From Chthonomonadales bacterium (GTDB lineage: Bacteria; Armatimonadota; Chthonomonadetes; Chthonomonadales; CAJBBX01), in the NCBI GenBank assembly GCA_020849275.1, contig JADLGO010000054.1:1-64000 (forward strand): a stretch of 64,000 bases of DNA, read 5' to 3'. This document shows, one piece after another, positions 50,607 to 59,305 of the stretch. The notes under the pieces were generated by a model that saw nothing but the letters and a program-made list of their open reading frames with translations, did no database searches and was not told the origin of the DNA. The first letter of the stretch is position 1, and each line of letters starts with the position of its first letter. The translations under genes and the position numbers were made by a program.

Positions 50607-51875
50607 CTACACCATTGCGGAGTTGACGTCGGGAGCGCGCTCGCTGGCGGATTCGTCCTGTCGAGAGCTACGCCAGGTGTGCTTCATCAGGAAGGGGCCC
50701 TGTGTGCGAGCGGGCAGCGTGCCATGCCCATAGTAGTCCGAGGCGACAATGCTGAGGAACCCAGGCAGCTCCAGCTGGTCAATGCTCTGCTGGCCGGATG
50801 CCACGGCGATCGTGAATCCGTACTCACCTGGCGCAAGAGCGACCTCCGGCACCTCGCACATGACGGTGACGTTCTCGTCAACCGAGTCGATTTCGAAGCC
50901 AGTGTAGTGGGTCTGCAGCGTCGCAAGGCGCTGGCCCGTCGTATCGTTGATGCCGATGCCCACACGGACGTGGCTGAGTCGAGATGTCGGTCTGAGATCG
51001 ACAGCGACAAGCATCCCTTCGCCGGACCTGAGTGATGACCGGCATTGGCCGCCACGATCAAGCAGCCGCACACGCGTGATCGCTGCGCCTGGCATCCGTG
51101 GCTCGGAGGCCTCAGTGGGCGTCCCTGTGGCTGCGTACCTCCCCGTGCAGTCGGCAGCAATGCCGTCGAAGGCAACATTGCCGCGTCGCATCAACACCGC
51201 ACGCGGGCAGAGGTTCTCAATTGCCGCCATGTTATGGCTCACGAACAGCACCGTCCGCCCTTCCTGCCGCGACACGTCCTGCATCTTCCCCAGGCACTTC
51301 CTCTGGAACGCCACGTCACCCACCGCCAGCACCTCGTCCACGATCAGGATCTCCGGGTTCAGGTGCGCCGCCACCGCGAAGGCCATCCGCACGTACATGC
51401 CGCTCGAGTAGCGCTTCACCGGCGTGTCCAGGAACTGCTCCACCTCCGCGAAGTCCACGATCGCGTCGAACTGGCGGTCGATCTCCCGCCGCTTCATCCC
51501 CAGGATCGCGCCGTTCAGGTAGATGTTCTCGCGCCCCGTCAGCTCCGGGTGAAAGCCCGTGCCCACCTCCAGCAGGCTGCCGACCCGGCCATAGAGCTTC
51601 ACCTCTCCCGCCGTCGGCTCCGTGATGCGGCTCAGGATCTTCAGCAGCGTGCTCTTGCCGGCGCCGTTGCGCCCGATGATGCCCACCACCTCGCCCTTCT
51701 TCACGTCGAAGGACACGTCGCGCAGCGCCCAGAACGTCTCGCGCTCCGCCCCGCCGAACGGGCGGCGCAGACGCTCGAGCAGCGCTTCGCCAAGCAGGGT
51801 GTGCTTCGCCTGATTATGGGCGATCGTGTAGGCCTTGGAGAGGCCGCGAATCGAGATGGCGGTGTCGTTGGGCAT
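50607..51875 (-). CDS. wzt: ABC-type polysaccharide export ATPase with C-terminal glycan-binding-like domain (Wzt-like)
   Basis: The 422-residue protein has Walker A GRNGAGKST (68-76), the Q-loop region, signature RYSSGMYVRMAFA, Walker B ILIVDEVLAVGD and the switch SHNM. These are typical of O-antigen/teichoic acid exporters (TagH/Wzt). From about residue 260 a beta-sandwich Wzt_C-like domain follows, which usually recognises the glycan end. ATG 51875 is the natural start but has no Shine-Dalgarno sequence; 24 bases upstream a 142-bp repeat begins. The frame remains open into that repeat. It pairs with the permease at 52598, now separated from it by a mobile-looking cassette. The C-terminal half has lower G+C. 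Confidence 0.9.
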   Translation of the reverse strand: MPNDTAISIRGLSKAYTIAHNQAKHTLLGEALLERLRRPFGGAERETFWALRDVSFDVKKGEVVGIIGRNGAGKSTLLKILSRITEPTAGEVKLYGRVGSLLEVGTGFHPELTGRENIYLNGAILGMKRREIDRQFDAIVDFAEVEQFLDTPVKRYSSGMYVRMAFAVAAHLNPEILIVDEVLAVGDVAFQRKCLGKMQDVSRQEGRTVLFVSHNMAAIENLCPRAVLMRRGNVAFDGIAADCTGRYAATGTPTEASEPRMPGAAITRVRLLDRGGQCRSSLRSGEGMLVAVDLRPTSRLSHVRVGIGINDTTGQRLATLQTHYTGFEIDSVDENVTVMCEVPEVALAPGEYGFTIAVASGQQSIDQLELPGFLSIVASDYYGHGTLPARTQGPFLMKHTWRSSRQDESASERAPDVNSAMV

Positions 51876-51898
51876 GGCAATCGTTGAATCTACGTCTA

Positions 51899-52040
51899 AC
51901 CACAGAGAACACAGAGGACACAGAGAACGGCTTAGTTTACAGGATCGCGCGGGCTGTTTCGTCAGAGGCGCGATGGCCTCACATGACTGCCCCACCGGAT
52001 TCACCGGGTCCTTCTCCGTGCTCTCTGTGTCCTCTGTGGT
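51899..52040. repeat. 142-bp repeat, copy A, with imperfect terminal inverted repeats
   Basis: The copy begins ACCACAGAGAACACAGAGG and ends CTCTCTGTGTCCTCTGTGGT. Its ends are imperfect inverted repeats of about 30 bp built from CACAGAG/ACACAGAGGA units. It matches copy B at 52449-52590 over the same length with scattered differences, in the same orientation. It lies 24 bases upstream of the export ATPase start. Confidence 0.9.
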
Positions 52041-52061
52041 GAACCCTCACTCAGCGGCGCC

Positions 52062-52443
52062 TCATCCGTTCCGCATGCGCCGAATGCCGTCGCGCAGCAT
52101 CGGCACGTGGAAGTTGATCAACAGCCCGACGGCATGGCCGGAGAGCTTCAGGTAGGAGAGCAACTGGGCCTCGTGGATCGGCAGCAGCTTCTCCACGGCC
52201 TTCAACTCCACGATCACGCTGTCCTCCACAACGAGATCCAGCCGGTAGCCGCAGTCGATCCGCGCCTCGCGGTAGACCACCGGCATCGGTTTCTGCCGCT
52301 CCACGCAGAGGCCTTGCTGCGCCAGCTCGTATGCCAGGCAGGCCTCGTAGGCTCGACTCGAGCAGCCCGGGGCCGAGCTCTCGATGCACGCGAATCGCCG
52401 CGCCGATAATCCTCCCCGTCAGGTCGTCGACCACGCCGGCCAC
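52062..52443 (-). pseudogene. GxxExxY-family protein (PD-(D/E)XK nuclease-like), frameshifted
   Basis: The minus strand reads IIGAAIRVHRELGPGLLES in one frame and AYEACLAYELAQQGLCVERQ in the next; the break is at about 52353-52358, where one extra base lies. Joined, they make GLLESAY, the GxxExxY signature, so the lesion is inside the motif. The rest is intact: VVYREARIDCGYRLDLVVED, then VIVELKAVEKLLPIHEAQLL, with the D...ExK pattern of this nuclease-like family, ending at 52062. Native length would be about 125 residues, starting at GTG 52443 or 52434. Function of the family is not established. It is bracketed by two 142-bp repeats. Confidence 0.8.
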
Positions 52444-52448
52444 ATCCC

Positions 52449-52590
52449 ACCACAGAGAGCACAGAGGACACAGAGAACGGCCTGGGTTCTGGGATCGCGC
52501 GGGCTGTTTCGTCAGAGGCGCGATGGCCTCACATGACCGCCCCACCGGATTCACCGGGTCTTTCTCCGTGCTCTCTGTGTTCTCTGTGGT
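52449..52590. repeat. 142-bp repeat, copy B, with imperfect terminal inverted repeats
   Basis: This copy begins ACCACAGAGAGCACAGAGG and ends CTCTCTGTGTTCTCTGTGGT. It is a direct repeat of copy A, 550 bp away start to start. It ends 7 bases after the stop codon of the export permease (52598), and its left end lies 5 bases from the putative start of the GxxExxY frame. Confidence 0.9.
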
Positions 52591-52597
52591 GAAACCC

Positions 52598-53431
52598 CTA
52601 GATCACGTCCGCAAACCGGCGCTCCATCCGCCGGAACGAGAACGCCCCCGCCGCCAGCACGACGAGCGTGAAGCCGGCCGAGTACGCGACGTAGGCGGGC
52701 CGCAGATGACCGGTGCCGAGCAGCGACCAGCGGAACGCCTCCAGCAGCCCCGAGAGCGGGTTCAGCAGGTAGACCGACCGCAGGCGCTCCGGCACCGCGC
52801 TCACCGCGTAGGCCACCGGGCTCGCGTAGAGCAGCATCTGCGTCAGCACCGGCAGCACGTGCATCACGTCCCGGTAGGTCACCATGAGCGCCGAGAAGAT
52901 GAGCCCCATCCCCAGCGCCAGCCCGAGCAGCACCGCCAGCCACACGGGCAGGAGCAGGAGCCCCCAGTGCGGCGCCACGCCGTTCAGACACATCAGCGCC
53001 GCCATCATCCCGAGCGCCACGGCGAAGTCGATGAGCACCGAGGGGACCGACGAGAGCGGCAGCACGAGCCGCGGAAAGTAGACCTTCGAGACCAGGCCGG
53101 CGTTGCCCACCAGGCTCTGGCTTGACTTCGTCAGGGTCGCGCTGAACGCGTTCCAGCCGAGCAGCCCGGCGTAGGAGAAGAGGAAGTAGGGCACGCCGTC
53201 GCTCGGCAGCTTCGCCACCCGGCCAAAGACGAACGAGAAGATCCCGGCGCCCACCAGCGGTTGGAGCACCACCCAGATGGCCCCCAGCGCCGTCTGCCGG
53301 TAGCGCAGCTTCACGTCGCGCCCGGCCAGCGTCAGCAGAAGGTCCCGAAACCGCCAGATCTCTCGCAGGTTCACCGCCTGCCAACCCGACGCCGGGCGGA
53401 TCACCAGGGCCGGCTTCTCGACCGCCTCCAC
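52598..53431 (-). CDS. wzm: ABC-type polysaccharide export permease (Wzm-like)
   Basis: The 277-residue ABC-2-type permease has the usual N-terminal amphipathic lead (LREIWRFRDLLLTLAGRDVK) and RYRQTALGAIWVVLQPLVGA, a signature of polysaccharide exporters. Six hydrophobic helices follow, with VSKVYFPRLVLPLSSV between helices 2 and 3 and LNPLSGLLEAFRWSLLG between 4 and 5. It forms the channel with two copies of the ATPase encoded at 50607 and exports a lipid-linked glycan across the inner membrane. It lies 4 bases downstream of the EpsI-type gene. Confidence 0.95.
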   Translation of the reverse strand: MEAVEKPALVIRPASGWQAVNLREIWRFRDLLLTLAGRDVKLRYRQTALGAIWVVLQPLVGAGIFSFVFGRVAKLPSDGVPYFLFSYAGLLGWNAFSATLTKSSQSLVGNAGLVSKVYFPRLVLPLSSVPSVLIDFAVALGMMAALMCLNGVAPHWGLLLLPVWLAVLLGLALGMGLIFSALMVTYRDVMHVLPVLTQMLLYASPVAYAVSAVPERLRSVYLLNPLSGLLEAFRWSLLGTGHLRPAYVAYSAGFTLVVLAAGAFSFRRMERRFADVI

Positions 53432-53435
53432 CGAG

Positions 53436-54083
53436 CTACGCCCTCCCCTCGCCGCCCGTCGGCGCGCCGGACCGCAGCAGCGCCCGCACCGACGGCAGGA
53501 TCGCCTGCGCGAAGGCGCGCATCTCGCCGCGCGCCTCCGGTCCCTCCGGCGCCGTCACCCGCACGAAGAGCGTCTGCCCCTGCTCCCGCGTCACCAGCCG
53601 CCGCAGCCCCGAGATCTTCCCCCACAGGCTCGTGTTCGGCACGCCCGGGAGCTGGTCCCCCTCCAGCCAGAAGAGCACCGCGATGCCGCTGCCCTCCTTG
53701 CGCGCCACCATCTCGCTCATGCCCCGCCCGCCCACCCGGCAGGTCGTCTCCTCGCCAAGCTGGTAGCCCTGGCTCGGGAAGCAGACGTTGGGGTCGTGGA
53801 AATCCTTGTAGTTGCCGGCGCTCACCAGCACCAGGTTAAGCGGCATGCCGGAGCGGCTCAGGTAGACGCGGTCGAGCACGCTCGCCGTGGGAAGCGCCTT
53901 GCGCGTCTCCGCGTCCAGCGGCCGGTCCGCCTTCGCCGTCCAGCCGCCCACCTGCCTCGGGAACTCGGCCACGGGCACCACGCGCAGCCGCGTGAGCGGA
54001 AGCCGCCCGAACGCATGGTTGCCCGCCAGGGCGACCCCGAGCAGCGCGAGCGCCGCTACCGCGAGTATCGAAGGTTTCCGCAT
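53436..54083 (-). CDS. epsI: EpsI-family (DUF3485) exosortase-associated protein
   Basis: The 215-residue protein has one N-terminal membrane segment (ILAVAALALLGVALAGN), VGGWTAKADRPLDAET, VLDRVYLSRSGMPLNLVLVS, and the diagnostic HDPNVCFPSQGYQLGEE followed by FWLEGDQLPG. This is the EpsI domain, often fused to or directly downstream of exosortase in extracellular polysaccharide loci, though its biochemical job is not settled. It overlaps the exosortase gene by 28 bases, which supports a working pair. Confidence 0.9.
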   Translation of the reverse strand: MRKPSILAVAALALLGVALAGNHAFGRLPLTRLRVVPVAEFPRQVGGWTAKADRPLDAETRKALPTASVLDRVYLSRSGMPLNLVLVSAGNYKDFHDPNVCFPSQGYQLGEETTCRVGGRGMSEMVARKEGSGIAVLFWLEGDQLPGVPNTSLWGKISGLRRLVTREQGQTLFVRVTAPEGPEARGEMRAFAQAILPSVRALLRSGAPTGGEGRA

Positions 54084-54979
54084 CCCACCAGCTTTCCGAA
54101 GAGCACGAACAGGAAGAAGGCCACCACCAGCACCACCATCTCCGCCCAGTCGTGCGCGATATGCAGCGCCGATTGGCCTCCCGCCGACGCCACCGCGATC
54201 AGCCCGGCCACGCGGAGCACGTTGGCGAACACAGCGATCGGCACCGCGCCGGCCACGAGCAGCACGCGCCGCAGGGGGCTCGCCGCGAACATGAACCCGT
54301 ACAGAAGCGCGAAGGCCACCAGGGCAGTCAGCTTCTTATAGCCGCTGCAGGCCTCCGCCACCTGTAGCGACATCCCCGGGACCTCGATCACGTTGCCCGA
54401 GCGCAGGATGTCGTAGCCGATGCTGGACATTACCGCCGTGGCGCCCCGTGTGCTTACGCTTTGGACCCAGGTGCTCGGCACACTCAGGATCGCCTCGGGC
54501 AGCGGCGCCGCGAAGAGCAGGAAGAGCACCGCGAAGCGCCACACGCGCCACAGGTCGCGCCCGTGCAGCAGCAGCAGCGCCCCGGCGAGCGTCGGCACCA
54601 GCGAAGCCATCGCCACGAACTTCACGCGCCCCAGATAGCCCACCGCCTCGAGCGCCAGGCCGAAGACCAGCGGCACGATCCCCCACGCGGTCGGGCGGTA
54701 GACGGCCTCGCGCATCCGGCGGCGCTCCAGCCAGAGCACGGCCGCCGCGACGGGCAGGATGAACACGCCATGCGCGTGGTTCTCGTTCTCCATCCATACC
54801 TGCGCCGTCTCGCGGATCACCGGCACATAGAGGGCAAGCAGGCACAGCCCCGCCAGTTTGGCCGCGAGCGGCCAGCGGCGTACGCCGGCAAGCGCCTCGG
54901 TCACCTCCGCGCGCGCCGATGCGCGCGGCTCCGCGGCCGCCGGCGCGCCGACCGCCTCGGTGACCTCGCTCACGCTCAT
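54056..54979 (-). CDS. Exosortase (cysteine transpeptidase for PEP-CTERM proteins)
   Basis: ATG 54979 overlaps the upstream stop (ATGA) and gives 307 residues with about eight membrane helices. The three exosortase landmarks are present: Cys211 in VAEACSGYKKL, Arg256 in FANVLRVAG and His276 in HIAHDWAEM. HAHGVFILPVAAAVLWLERR near the N-terminus is also typical. Exosortases recognise PEP-CTERM tails and probably transfer the protein to a surface anchor. Two candidate substrates lie at 31483 and 32505. Its place between an acetyltransferase and EpsI within an EPS locus is the classical context. Confidence 0.95.
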   Translation of the reverse strand: MSVSEVTEAVGAPAAAEPRASARAEVTEALAGVRRWPLAAKLAGLCLLALYVPVIRETAQVWMENENHAHGVFILPVAAAVLWLERRRMREAVYRPTAWGIVPLVFGLALEAVGYLGRVKFVAMASLVPTLAGALLLLHGRDLWRVWRFAVLFLLFAAPLPEAILSVPSTWVQSVSTRGATAVMSSIGYDILRSGNVIEVPGMSLQVAEACSGYKKLTALVAFALLYGFMFAASPLRRVLLVAGAVPIAVFANVLRVAGLIAVASAGGQSALHIAHDWAEMVVLVVAFFLFVLFGKLVGCGNLRYSR

Positions 54980-55476
54980 GGAGCCCCCCACCATCCACCC
55001 ATCGCCGCCATGCCCGCCTCCACCGGCGCGCCGTTGGTCCGCCGCTCCACCGGCCGCGCCGGCGCCCCCACCACCGTCTGCCCGGGCGCCACATCGCGCG
55101 TGACCACCGCGTTCGCCCCGACCACCGCGCCCGCGCCGATGACCAGGTCGCGCTCCCGCTTGCACAGGAGCACCGCCCCCGCGCCGATCATCGTCCCGTC
55201 TCCCACCCGAATACGATGGGGCGAACCGATCCAGGTCTCCGAAGCCAGAGTCACGTGGTGGTAGATCCGCACACCGTGCCCCAGCGTCACGTTCGGATGG
55301 ATGACGACCCCCAGACCGTAGTGCTCCAGCGCGATGTCTCGCTCGATCTCCGCCTGATAGGGGAGAATCGCCCGGAACAACAGATAGTTCGCTAACTTGA
55401 GGAGCCGGGCTGCCCACACCAGCCGCCGACGGTACGCGCAGCAGCTAAGCCACCAGAGGAACTCCGGGTTCAGCAT
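54976..55476 (-). CDS. Serine acetyltransferase-like hexapeptide transferase (EPS-type)
   Basis: ATG 55476 begins at the conserved NPEFLWWLSCCAYRRR and avoids overlap; an ATG at 55554 would overlap the upstream glycosyltransferase gene by 50 bases. The 166-residue product has a helical lead (LANYLLFRAILPYQAEI) and hexapeptide coils LGVVIHPNVTLGHGVRIYHH, IRVGDGTMIGAGAV and VIGAGAVVGANAVVTRDV, which fit the CysE-like serine O-acetyltransferase group found in EPS and exosortase loci. It is coupled by ATGA to the exosortase gene. Acetylation of a sugar rather than serine is likely here. Confidence 0.85.
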   Translation of the reverse strand: MLNPEFLWWLSCCAYRRRLVWAARLLKLANYLLFRAILPYQAEIERDIALEHYGLGVVIHPNVTLGHGVRIYHHVTLASETWIGSPHRIRVGDGTMIGAGAVLLCKRERDLVIGAGAVVGANAVVTRDVAPGQTVVGAPARPVERRTNGAPVEAGMAAMGGWWGAP

Positions 55477-55504
55477 CCCGCCGAGCCCACGCCTGGGCAC
55501 GCGA

Positions 55505-56671
55505 TCAGCCACGGCCGCTCCCCACCACACGCGATCGGTCGCGCTCTCGTCCATTCGCGGCCGCGGCCATCGCCACAGCCCGCCCGTCGCGCGCCAACTC
55601 GTCTTCGATGACCCGCAGGATCCCCCGGCGGAAGTTCTCCGCGCTGAATCGCATGGCGTGCTCCCGGATCGCCGCCGGGTTCAGCGCGAGCGTGTCCAAC
55701 CGGTTGACCGCCGCGCAGAGCGACTCGATCGTCTGCTCCCCGAACAGCACTCCCGTCACGCCGTCGATCTGTGAGTCGAGGGCGCCTCCGGCGCCGTAGG
55801 CGATGACGGGCCGGCCACAGGCGTTCGCCTCCACCGGGGCGATGCCGAAGTCCTCCTCGCCCGGCATCACGTACGCGAAGGCGCGCGACATCAGCCCCGC
55901 CAACTCCGTGTCGCTCACCCGCCCGCGAAACTCAACGCTGGCCCCCGCGCGCGCCCGAAGACGCTTCATCTGCCGCCCATCCCCCACCACGAGCAGGCGC
56001 CGACCCAGGCGCGTGAACGCTTCAATCGCCAGGTCGATCCGCTTGTACGGGATACACCGCGAGGCGATCAGGTAGTAGTCTTCCACCTCCGACGATATCT
56101 GGAACCGCTGCACGTCGACGGGAGGGTGCACGATGTCGCACTCTCGCCGGTAGAACTTCTCGATGCGGCGCGCCACGATGCGGGAGTTGGCGATGAAGCG
56201 GTCCACACGGCTCGTGGCCACGGCGTCCCACACGCGCAGGTAGTGAAGCCCGGGAGCGAGCAGGCCGCGCAGGAAGCGCCCGGCACGCTCGTTCTTCATG
56301 TAGCCGCGCGCCATCCAGGCGAAGCGCATCGGCGTATGGCAATAGGTCACATGGAGCGTGTCCGGAAGAGTCACCACGCCCTTGGCGAAAGCCGAGGAGG
56401 AGCTGATCACCAGGTCGAAGCCGCTCAGGTCCATGCCCTCAAAGGCAATCGGGTAGAGCATGAGGGCCAAGCGGTGCAGCCGGCGCTTCAGGGGCATCCA
56501 CTGGAGGAAGGTTGTGTGGATGTCCCACGTCCGATAGTATGTCGGCATGGTGGCGGCATCGTAGACCGAGGTATAGACGGGGGCGTCCGGGAACATGTCG
56601 TGGAGCACCTCCACGACCTTCTCCGCTCCACCCATCTGCGTCAGGAAATCGTGAACGATCGCAACCTTCAT
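55505..56671 (-). CDS. Glycosyltransferase family 4 (mannosyltransferase-like)
   Basis: ATG 56671 opens on KVAIVHDFLTQMGGAEKVVE and has GAGG 11 bases upstream. The 388-residue GT-B enzyme shows ISSSSAFAKGVVTLPDTLHV, TYCHTPMRFAWM, DRFIANSRIVARRIEKFY, DYYLIASRCIPYKRIDLAIE and the donor motif MPGEEDFGIAPVEANACGRP with the paired Glu. TYCHTPMR and the EEDFGI block are common to WbaZ-type mannosyltransferases, so a mannose donor is plausible. It lies between the Wzc-type gene and the acetyltransferase gene. Confidence 0.9.
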   Translation of the reverse strand: MKVAIVHDFLTQMGGAEKVVEVLHDMFPDAPVYTSVYDAATMPTYYRTWDIHTTFLQWMPLKRRLHRLALMLYPIAFEGMDLSGFDLVISSSSAFAKGVVTLPDTLHVTYCHTPMRFAWMARGYMKNERAGRFLRGLLAPGLHYLRVWDAVATSRVDRFIANSRIVARRIEKFYRRECDIVHPPVDVQRFQISSEVEDYYLIASRCIPYKRIDLAIEAFTRLGRRLLVVGDGRQMKRLRARAGASVEFRGRVSDTELAGLMSRAFAYVMPGEEDFGIAPVEANACGRPVIAYGAGGALDSQIDGVTGVLFGEQTIESLCAAVNRLDTLALNPAAIREHAMRFSAENFRRGILRVIEDELARDGRAVAMAAAANGRERDRSRVVGSGRG

Positions 56672-56833
56672 GGGCCGTCGTTCCTCGCCCTTCGCAACGG
56701 CGCCGCGCGCCTCCGACGCGCGCTCCGCCAACGTTGCATTCGCTCGTCGCCCAGCCATCAAGCCGCTCCTCCGAAACAGCGGGGCGCTCTTGCCGGATAC
56801 GCCGGCGCAACCCTTCGCGTCTCCGGCGCCGAC

Positions 56834-59077
56834 CTACTCCTCCGACGTGTCGTGTCCGCGCGGCATCGACGGGCCGATCGTGCCGTCGCTCAGGTCCCAG
56901 AGTTCCGAGCCCGCATCGTGATAGCCGTTGCCTCTCCGGCCGTCGCGCCTTGCGCCCGCCCCGCTGTAGGCGTAGTAGTAGCGGTAGGTGTGGGCGTGCT
57001 CGCGCGGCGCGCGGTTCACGAAGAAGACCATCGTGTCCGGCGCGGCCGCCGAAAGCGCCGCCACCGTGTCGCGCACAATGCCCTGGTCCACCAACCCGGC
57101 GCCAACCACGTAGAGGATGCAGTCGACGTGCGGCGCCAGGAGCAGCGCGTCCGCCACGGCCGTGCAAGCGGCGGCGTCCAGCACCACCACGTCGGCCTCC
57201 GCGCGTAGCCGCTCGAGTGTCTCCTTGAGCACGGGCAGGGAGAGCAGCTCGGTCGGATTGTGCACCATCGGGCCGGCGTGCACCAGGTAAAGGTTCGGCG
57301 TGTCCGTCGAGACGATCGCCTCGGAGAGCGGCATCTCTCCGGTCAGCACGTCGGAGAGACCACTCGTCTCGGCAGTCCCGAATATGCGGCTCATCGATGG
57401 GCGGCGCACGTCCGTGTCGACCAGGATCACGCTCTTGCCCGATCGCGCGATGGTGCGCGCCATCGCCGCCGCCGTGACGGATTTCCCCTCGCCAGGAATG
57501 GCGCTCGTGACCAGGATGATCTGCTGATGCCACGGGTCGGCGTGCCCGGTGCTCCGCAGCGCCAGCGAGAGGTTGGCGCGCGCCAGGCTGTAGGCATCCA
57601 CCGCGGGCACGCGCGAGTCGCCGGTCGCGAGGCCCTCGATGTCGGAGCGCGGGATCCGCGGGAGCACCCCCACCACCGGCCCGTTCACCAGCCGCCGCAC
57701 GTCGTCCACGCTGCGCACCCTCCGATCCGACTGCTCCAGAAGAAGCACCGACACGATGGCCAGGAAGACGCCGATGGCCCCGCCGAACAGGAGATCGCGC
57801 GAGCGGCTCGGGCGGAACGGATCGTCCGGCACGAAGGCATACTGGGCGATCTGCACGTTGCCGCTGGCCATGTCCTTGTCGAGCCGCACGGAGTTGAGAG
57901 CCGTCTGCAGGGACGTGTAGAGATTGCGCGCGAGCTCGGCGTTCCGAACCAGCCGGGCGTACTCCATGTTGAGTCGCGGCACGCCGGAGATCTGGCCCCG
58001 GAGCTGGTCGCGGAACCGGGCCGCCGCATCCAGCTTGGCGCGCGTGAAGAGCGTCTCAAGCTGCGCTTGCCGATACTCCTCGGCCAGCGTGCCCTGCGCC
58101 TCGAGGGTCGGGCGCTTGTCCTGCACGCGCGTCCGCAAGGCCTGGGCGAGTTGCGTCTTTACGAACGCGATCTCCCCATCGACCTTGCGAACCTCCGGGT
58201 GCGCGGGCATGTACTGGCGCAGGAGCGTGGCGCGCTGCAACTCGAGATCGTTGAGCTTGGCCTGCAAGCTCCCGAGGGCGCCGTCGTCGCGAACGCCGCC
58301 GGTACCGGCGATAGCGGCATTGGCCCCGCGCAGCCGCTGCTCCGCTTCGCGAAGGCGCGCACCGCCGGCGGCAAGCACCTGCTTGAGTTGCTGCACCTCG
58401 GCGTCGCGCGCCATATACTCGTCCGCCAGCGCCTTCTGCTGCGCGGAGACATCCGCGGTCCTGTGTTGGCGGTTAAACTCGGCCTGCAGCGCCTCTGCCT
58501 CGATCATCTGGGTCCGCGCACGAGCGGCGCGCGTCTCCAGACTGCTGGAGGTGTCTTGCGCGTTTTGCTGCGCCACCTCACGCTTCCATTGCACGAAGGC
58601 CTGGCAAACCGCGTTGGTCAGATCCTCGGCCTCCACGCGGCTCCCAGCCTCCACGCTCACGTTGAGAAGGTTCGTGTCCCTGGGCGCCGTGGCGCTGATG
58701 CTCTCCTGAAGATCCTCGACGTCCTCGGGGATGGCGTCGAGCGGCTTGCCCTTGGAGAGCGCGTCGTTCTTCATCCAATCGATGGTCCGCCGGGCCATCG
58801 CGATGCTCTGGAGCATCGCGATCTGAGTCTCGGAGGTCTCCACCATCGGAGAGGTCGAGACGGTCTGCCCACCGGAGCCGACAACCGCGGCGCGCTGGAT
58901 CAGGATCATCTGCGCGCTGCCGCGCCAGCGCTTCGGCGTGCTCTTCGATACGAAGTAGGCCGTGCCCAGCGAAAACGCCAGCATTAGAACGATCACCCAT
59001 AGCCGCCGCCAGAGTACCTTCAGGACATCGCCGGCGGTTACGGTCGGGTGCGACTCAGCGGGTTGCACGAGATCCAT
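56834..59077 (-). CDS. wzc: Wzc-type polysaccharide co-polymerase with BY-kinase domain
   Basis: ATG 59077 follows GGAGCAAG. The 747-residue protein has two membrane helices (about 27-44 and 429-447) that bracket a periplasmic Wzz-type domain with a long coiled coil (about 170-400). The cytoplasmic BY-kinase has Walker A SAIPGEGKSVTA (525-536) and Walker A' ILVDTDVRRP (551-560). Walker B is unusual in reading VVVLDAAACT instead of the common IDTPP. A Tyr cluster (HTYRYYYAYSG) near the C-terminus is the expected autophosphorylation site. It sets chain length and couples synthesis to export. Confidence 0.95.
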   Translation of the reverse strand: MDLVQPAESHPTVTAGDVLKVLWRRLWVIVLMLAFSLGTAYFVSKSTPKRWRGSAQMILIQRAAVVGSGGQTVSTSPMVETSETQIAMLQSIAMARRTIDWMKNDALSKGKPLDAIPEDVEDLQESISATAPRDTNLLNVSVEAGSRVEAEDLTNAVCQAFVQWKREVAQQNAQDTSSSLETRAARARTQMIEAEALQAEFNRQHRTADVSAQQKALADEYMARDAEVQQLKQVLAAGGARLREAEQRLRGANAAIAGTGGVRDDGALGSLQAKLNDLELQRATLLRQYMPAHPEVRKVDGEIAFVKTQLAQALRTRVQDKRPTLEAQGTLAEEYRQAQLETLFTRAKLDAAARFRDQLRGQISGVPRLNMEYARLVRNAELARNLYTSLQTALNSVRLDKDMASGNVQIAQYAFVPDDPFRPSRSRDLLFGGAIGVFLAIVSVLLLEQSDRRVRSVDDVRRLVNGPVVGVLPRIPRSDIEGLATGDSRVPAVDAYSLARANLSLALRSTGHADPWHQQIILVTSAIPGEGKSVTAAAMARTIARSGKSVILVDTDVRRPSMSRIFGTAETSGLSDVLTGEMPLSEAIVSTDTPNLYLVHAGPMVHNPTELLSLPVLKETLERLRAEADVVVLDAAACTAVADALLLAPHVDCILYVVGAGLVDQGIVRDTVAALSAAAPDTMVFFVNRAPREHAHTYRYYYAYSGAGARRDGRRGNGYHDAGSELWDLSDGTIGPSMPRGHDTSEE

Positions 59078-59305
59078 CTTGCTCCGTACGCATCGCCTCG
59101 GCGCGGCCACGACGGCCCGCGCAAGGCGATTACAGCCTGGCTACTCCATCACGATCGGACTCGAATGGCATGCGCGGGCCGACCTCCCCGCGGTTCCACC
59201 AAGGCGGGGCGACTCGCGCGCACGGCCCGCCGTCGGCGGGCCGTGGAGGCCACAGGCAGCTACGCTGCCCCCTCCTGAACCCACGGCGGCGCGCTGTCTA
59301 GCGCT
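59078..59305. other. Gap upstream of the Wzc-type gene
   Basis: This 228-bp stretch has no gene. GGCCCGCCGTCGGCGGGCC (59224-59242) is an inverted repeat with an 8-base arm and lies about 65 bases from the end of the sugar transferase gene, so it may be a terminator for that gene; no T-tract is present. Confidence 0.3.

Follow-up and report, generated by a model that had tools for sequence, protein, structure and literature searches.

A GxxExxY nuclease gene framed by iteron palindromes: a candidate REPIN/RAYT-like unit in a Chthonomonadales genome

We analysed a window of 64,000 nucleotides (nt) of contig JADLGO010000054.1 from a Chthonomonadales bacterium (genome 4.8 Mb), in which a disrupted gene of the GxxExxY family, flanked by two direct repeats, separates the permease and ATPase genes of a polysaccharide exporter. 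We consider it about 65% probable that this insert is the relic of a widespread unit in which a nuclease gene is framed by its own recognition sequences. Such a unit would resemble the REPIN/RAYT systems of bacteria (repetitive extragenic palindromic (REP) doublets forming hairpins and their REP-associated tyrosine transposases), but with an unrelated enzyme. In other genomes the unit has sharp ends and carries arms that diverge along with its protein; palindromes that have these arms but no gene are dispersed, and the gene bears the mark of selection.

The insert between the permease and ATPase genes

The insert and the two genes beside it contain the following features.

50607-51875, minus strand: ATP-binding cassette (ABC) polysaccharide-export ATPase, downstream gene of the host operon, start MPNDTAISIRG (open reading frame (ORF) and homologues)
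51899-52041, no strand: palindromic unit copy A, 3' of the GxxExxY gene and beside the ATPase start; 133/143 versus copy B; fold -34.3 kcal/mol, z -4.9
51899-51927, plus strand: copy A left arm ACCACAGAGAACACAGAGGACACAGAGAA, three ~9-bp iterons; inverted repeat, 86% complementary to 52012-52040
52012-52041, minus strand: copy A right arm, inverted iterons as in the left arm (inverted-repeat pairing)
52062-52443, minus strand: GxxExxY (PF13366/TIGR04256) PD-(D/E)XK nuclease gene, disrupted; possible GTG start 52443, TGA 52062-52064; one-base frame offset near 52350-52359
52449-52591, no strand: palindromic unit copy B, 5' of the GxxExxY gene and beside the permease stop; fold -36.8 kcal/mol, z -5.0
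52449-52477, plus strand: copy B left arm ACCACAGAGAGCACAGAGGACACAGAGAA; inverted repeat, 82% complementary
52562-52591, minus strand: copy B right arm (inverted-repeat pairing)
52598-53431, minus strand: ABC polysaccharide-export permease, upstream gene of the host operon (ORF and homologues)

A sequence-only reading of this DNA had described 142-bp direct repeats bracketing a GxxExxY gene. The repeats are real: positions 51892-52046 and 52442-52596 are 91% identical across 155 nt, and their cores measure 143 bp each, with 133 of 143 positions identical. That reading had missed two features, namely that each repeat is itself a palindrome and that the gene is broken. Each 143-bp repeat has 29-bp arms with three ~9-bp CACAGAGNN iterons, set around a middle of ~84 nt, and no shuffled sequence folded as well as either copy in DNA folding. 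A search of the whole genome placed the full unit solely at this locus, and exact CACAGAGNNCACAGAG was absent elsewhere in that genome.

With the permease frame closing at 52598 and the ATPase start codon (ATG) at 51875, the gap is 722 bp, with margins of ~7 bp on the permease side and ~23 bp on the ATPase side, as had been described. In the nearest homologous pair found (genome G048; permease 72% and ATPase 76% identical; G and L numbers are our labels for genomes and loci) and in two other pairs, the ATPase gene begins within the end of the permease gene. Because the two genes overlap there, the 722 bp are best read as an insertion, and the proposal that a cassette had entered between normally adjacent genes was borne out by this comparison. 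The permease, the GxxExxY reading and the ATPase all lie on the minus strand in the same direction. Within the insert no promoters or terminators were found, and the region gave no match to Rfam families.

The further claim of a nuclease-like gene was right as to the family. With the frame break bridged, the reading matched the TIGR04256 profile at 149.9 bits (curated cut-off 35), and the C-terminal frame alone scored 123 bits; it is the one GxxExxY gene that a search of the genome returned. The N-terminal frame, from the GTG, and the C-terminal frame, up to the TGA, are shifted by one base against each other, so the locus has no intact ORF. As assembled, the window copy cannot encode an intact protein, and the offset reflects either a pseudogene or an assembly error. 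Active-site residues are kept in the C-terminal frame (YRLDLVV...VIVELKAV...EAQLLSY).

Arms and gene as one unit across genomes

We gathered 80 GxxExxY relatives from 84,980 species genomes, plus more from the window's own phylum, and searched their borders with a motif-blind test in which upstream DNA was aligned to the reverse complement of downstream DNA (cut-off score at least 32). Inverted repeats bordered 98 of 129 GxxExxY loci and none of 668 control windows drawn from the same loci. The earlier suggestion that the repeats go with GxxExxY genes thus proved correct, and across phyla: iteron arms abutting the ORF occurred in at least nine, judged by record titles, which we take to be Pseudomonadota, Planctomycetota, Chloroflexota, Acidobacteriota, Verrucomicrobiota, Chlamydiota, Myxococcota, Bacteroidota, Desulfobacterota and others.

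The arms consisted of about three tandem iterons (best iteron lag 8-10 bp in 77 of 84), whose sequence differed greatly between loci and even between paralogues of the same genome (CACAGAG, CGCAGAG, CGCAAAG, CACGAAG, CGCAGAT, AGGAT and others). The coding sequence nearly filled the space between the arms, with median distances of 10 bp from the first arm to the start codon and 5 bp from the stop codon to the second. Two layouts were seen, either a single arm per side or a complete palindrome per side, the latter in the window and at L150, L158 and L181. Units made of a terminal inverted repeat (TIR), the ORF and a second TIR measured 430-512 bp in some loci, and the overall span was ~440-640 bp. 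At the level of whole genomes, 30 contained a strict (CACNNAGNN)3 pattern and 17 of these also had the gene, versus 65 of 251 overall; a few of the pattern hits look like chance.

The ends of the unit were visible where the element was similar and its surroundings were not. Four loci from different species with unrelated flanks (L017, L029, L042, L084) were 72-81% similar, and this similarity mostly stopped a few to ~16 bp from the repeat ends; the element-only homologies of L074/L089 and L172/L209 likewise stopped near the repeat ends. The hom-thrC operon of one order offered filled and empty sites. In two genomes (G141, G173) a unit of ~430 bp begins 5-6 bp past the stop codon of hom and reaches almost to the start region of thrC, whereas three others of the same order (G116, G157, G136) have no element and a gap of 2 to about 17 bp, as read from the junctions. 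Units were spaced a median of 7 and 16 bp from their neighbour genes, both neighbours were co-directional for 46 of 68 units, and the neighbours varied between loci. We concluded that arms and gene form one sharp-ended unit.

Several units (L172/L169, L084, L062, L022/L026/L035/L047/L051/L067) lay between functionally linked genes. Read by eye from translations, these genes are hom and thrC, what look like phoH and a gene of the HD family, transporter genes, and sugar-ABC-transporter genes.

Precise seats between operon genes, together with empty and filled alleles, are also what a homing-endonuclease-like enzyme would produce, cutting unoccupied intergenic alleles so that repair copies the gene in; one weak fold match of the protein, to I-Bth0305I, fits this idea. 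Inverted iteron arms, however, are unneeded for homing, which would not spread gene-free palindromes to many unrelated sites, and the neighbour genes change from locus to locus. We regard homing as extremely unlikely.

The arms also followed the protein. Between loci, arm similarity correlated with protein identity (Spearman rho 0.51; 0.49 for pairs less than 65% identical), whereas the 45 bp just outside the unit did not (rho -0.03; 0.01 for pairs less than 65% identical). Arms of same-genome paralogues were no closer than those of matched cross-genome pairs (0.18 versus 0.20). Where orthologous pairs aligned well (L196/L200, L197/L156, L169/L172), arms agreed better within a locus (0.88-1.0) than between species (0.56-0.80); other orthologous pairs were less clean in this comparison because their arms had been delimited differently. 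These alignments indicate joint descent and homogenisation of the unit. We infer recognition of the arms by the protein as well, because the correlation persists among proteins so diverged that DNA free of constraint would be saturated with changes.

The protein itself is predicted to be a Cas4/RecB-like PD-(D/E)XK nuclease of ~130 amino acids (aa). Relatives matched the PF13366 profile at 144-158 bits (cut-off 22), and across 62 of them D69 and Q93 were invariant, E79 and K81 were kept in at least 90%, and H20, E29, Y32, Y57 and N110 were also shared. The structure model (predicted local distance difference test score, pLDDT, 96) found its best structural match in the Cas4 nuclease SSO0001 (Z 9.6), followed by other RecB-like nucleases and restriction enzymes, with values of Z below 8 not taken as kinship. 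A defence library returned weak Cas4 profile matches and one marginal hit, and a sequence search of solved structures gave no match at E<=1. Scans with Pfam, PHROGs and PADLOC recognised no DDE, HUH, serine or tyrosine transposase in the GxxExxY relatives; Pfam found no Y1 transposase domain, and the model has a restriction-endonuclease-like fold. A published GxxExxY gene that stands beside a reverse transcriptase was called cas4 by another program (PMC8934634), in accord with the Cas4-like fold, and the published gene list of an algal virus includes a GxxExxY gene (PMC12085832).

The ratio of nonsynonymous to synonymous substitution rates between close pairs was 0.04-0.30, which indicates purifying selection on the gene. 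Many loci were orthologous across genera. The family was found in 7 of 72,556 plasmid records, in none of 50,697 phages and at 5 loci in 2.9 million viral contigs. Within genomes, paralogues were mostly less than 70% identical or too diverged to align, the exceptions being a tandem pair (L188) and a larger duplication (L180/L182). By these surveys, the gene is inherited mostly vertically at fixed chromosomal loci.

Such a record bears on the reading of the unit as an ordinary insertion sequence (IS), whose nuclease would be a transposase moving its own gene by cut-and-paste and whose gene-free palindromes would be its miniature inverted-repeat transposable elements (MITEs). The TIR-ORF-TIR units of 430-512 bp, the element-only homologies and the dispersed MITE-like copies described below are all in keeping with it. 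Near-identical gene copies within genomes are few, however, orthologous positions persist across genera, inspection by eye showed no target-site duplication, and the gene is rare on plasmids, missing from the phages and confined to those five loci in viral contigs. This reading is very unlikely in our judgement.

Gene-free palindromes and the spread of the unit

When the arms of 30 loci were searched against 21 genomes, arms from several loci gave many matches in the genome they came from or in a close sister of it: G046 (L191), G048 (L203), G072 (L206), G034 (L028), G164 (L171), G092/G117 (L196) and G044 (L150). In G046, the arms of L191 gave ~20 hits, mainly as inward-facing pairs. Many dispersed copies were full arm-middle-arm palindromes of 93-277 bp with differing flanks and no gene; some were single arms only, as in G164 and G092.

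The sequence-only reading had named repeats lying mostly away from GxxExxY genes as a sign against its proposal. That distribution was found in some genomes, yet the repeats there carry the arms of the genome's own GxxExxY locus, as a trans-acting system predicts. Its proposal of a mobile system with terminal inverted repeats stands in part: there was an insertion, and the repeats are tied to the gene, but the gene is mostly vertical and is rare on plasmids and viruses, and it is mainly gene-free palindromes that disperse. Because these same-arm palindromes are what mainly disperses, the closest analogue is REPIN/RAYT and not an ordinary IS.

Several gene-free copies were located in the middle of a different palindrome or next to its midpoint (L257, L251, L264; L287, L292, L295, L311, L312). 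We considered palindromic flanks as proof of palindrome targeting, and this argument was weakened when part of the signal in G048 proved to be one composite repeat: L287, L292 and L295 have common flanking sequence, and L311 and L312 carry half of that flank beside the element. In G046, palindromes with L191 arms (L248-L253) hold CGCAGAT- and CACAAAG-type iteron palindromes in their middles, that is, nested elements.

The same copies bear on whether the arms are operators, other regulatory sites or mRNA hairpins of a nuclease that serves its host, for instance in repair or defence, with mobility incidental. Such a role would suit a gene that is under strong purifying selection, occurs as a single copy at a conserved place in an operon, and has start and stop codons that adjoin the arms. 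It does not account for same-arm gene-free palindromes scattered through the genome, for element-only homology amid unrelated flanks or for the empty hom-thrC sites, and the defence library gave nothing beyond the weak matches mentioned above. Pairing of the arms as RNA was disfavoured, since mismatches between arms showed no G-U-compatible excess (125 versus 127, p 0.95) and no Rfam match was found. We consider the regulatory explanation unlikely.

It is also conceivable that the arms belong to an unrelated palindromic repeat family mobilised by another enzyme, with GxxExxY genes as passengers. The palindromes outnumber the genes, those with the arms of one locus in G046 contain other iteron types, and in three genomes that have such palindromes (G160, G031, G200) no intact GxxExxY gene was detected. 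Against this, the arms co-vary with the GxxExxY protein and not with the genome, and they adjoin the ORF in at least nine phyla. In G200, moreover, a weak match to a GxxExxY fragment of 18-19 aa (E down to 1e-5) lies near a dispersed arm (L352, G200:C3:35027-36251), as expected of gene loss. We find this account distinctly unlikely.

Under our preferred explanation, that of a nuclease framed by its own recognition sequences, the enzyme would bind its iterons as DNA and cut at the palindrome, probably when this is extruded as a hairpin or cruciform. Cutting would then cause arm-bounded DNA to be copied or moved into intergenic sites. The main cargo would be small gene-free palindromes, with the gene unit moving rarely and otherwise passing vertically. 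REPIN/RAYT systems appear to behave in this way too, through an unrelated enzyme. In the window, a unit with its gene between two complete palindromes would have entered the permease/ATPase junction and acquired its frame shift later.

Several results weigh against this explanation. The three genomes with palindromes and no detectable intact gene are one, and 31 of the 129 GxxExxY genes had no detectable arms (score below 32). No dispersed arm copies were found in the window's own genome, whose gene is also broken. Inspection by eye of junctions, among which there was no exact filled/empty nucleotide pair, revealed no target-site duplication. For gene-free palindromes, the search for a clean filled/empty pair covered a single genus, that of G048, and yielded none, its only second species being too diverged; the genus of G092 offered two genomes only for this comparison. 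Lastly, the correlation of arms with protein would by itself indicate joint descent, and recognition is a step beyond it.

Known systems and a second nuclease family

In REPIN/RAYT systems (REPtrons, also TnpA-REP systems), the gene is usually single copy per type, chromosomal and flanked by paired repeats; palindromic doublets are dispersed intergenically, also in tandem clusters; and repeat type matches protein type (PMC3116915, PMC8266576, PMC3733652). GxxExxY genes share these traits with the REPtrons, among them the flanking palindromic repeats and the cognate doublets dispersed in the same genome (G046, G048, G072, G034 and others, although not in the window's genome). They differ in that the enzyme belongs to the PD-(D/E)XK group and is not a Y1/HUH tyrosine transposase, that the arms, built of 8-10-bp iterons in tandem (for example CACAGAGNN or CGCAGATNN), have no common GTAG/CGTC tag, and that the gene often lies inside an inverted pair as a terminal-inverted-repeat unit. 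That is, the GxxExxY system works like a REPtron but lacks two of its defining features, the HUH transposase and the GTAG/CGTC tag. If the nuclease were the sole mobilising enzyme, the system would be a new class.

Other known elements share less. MITEs and classical IS likewise comprise short gene-free elements whose terminal inverted repeats match a gene-bearing unit, but here no transposase family was recognised, no target-site duplication was seen, and the units with a gene are for the most part passed on vertically. Stem-loops serve as targets that IS1272 replaces (PMC5678879), and like this palindrome-targeting group (IS1272/IS1182) several gene-free palindromes sit exactly mid-palindrome; unlike it, GxxExxY loci have no transposase gene of that kind, and the mid-palindrome position was found in some of the copies examined only. 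With Cas4, lambda-type and RecB nucleases and the Hjc resolvase the protein shares a predicted fold and the D...ExK...QxxxY active-site layout, but it has no sequence match among solved structures, stands alone at ~130 aa and is tied to repeats. The open papers searched held no link between the GxxExxY family, which they name in passing only, and repeats, and no description of the repeat, in agreement with the earlier remark that such a system was not known to be described.

Small nuclease genes of the DUF559 family (PF04480; L372-L401) had inverted palindromes of their own, CCCTCTCCC...GGGAGAGGG...GGGGTGAGGG, in 14 of 24 cases versus none of 24 controls. A filled/empty pair was available here, with a 484-bp insert in L074 that is absent from L058. 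As judged from these sequences, DUF559 appears to be a second, separate nuclease-plus-palindrome system with the same anatomy and different repeats. A ~50-copy repeat at L196:1960-2002, at first taken for GxxExxY arms, turned out to be a separate GGGGAGGG palindrome. Palindromes of this type gave many dozens of hits, often paired, across G092 and G117, and they are possibly the repeats of the DUF559 system.

We offer tentatively, and at somewhat less than even odds, a broader proposal: that these systems represent a class of minimal mobile DNA not recognised before. Its palindromes of tandem iterons would be recognised and spread by a single PD-(D/E)XK nuclease of ~130 aa, with no known recombinase fold involved. 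GxxExxY, with its iteron arms, and DUF559, with its CCCTCTCCC palindromes, may have reached this state independently, and the class could account for some of the commonest short palindromic repeats in bacterial genomes. Genomes of several phyla contain dispersed repeats such as CACAGAGGACACAGAG and CACGAAGGACACGAAG, for which the papers searched give no origin. Tying such repeats to a common, little-studied nuclease family would give the repeats an owner and the family a function, and would allow a direct test of whether a PD-(D/E)XK nuclease alone can mobilise palindromes. The protein/iteron pairs vary widely and thus form a natural series for reading the DNA-recognition code.

Beyond the permease gene, positions 53436-59110 of the window were read by eye as an exopolysaccharide locus, with an exosortase/EpsI-like protein, a glycosyltransferase, acetyltransferases and a Wzz/tyrosine-kinase-like protein.
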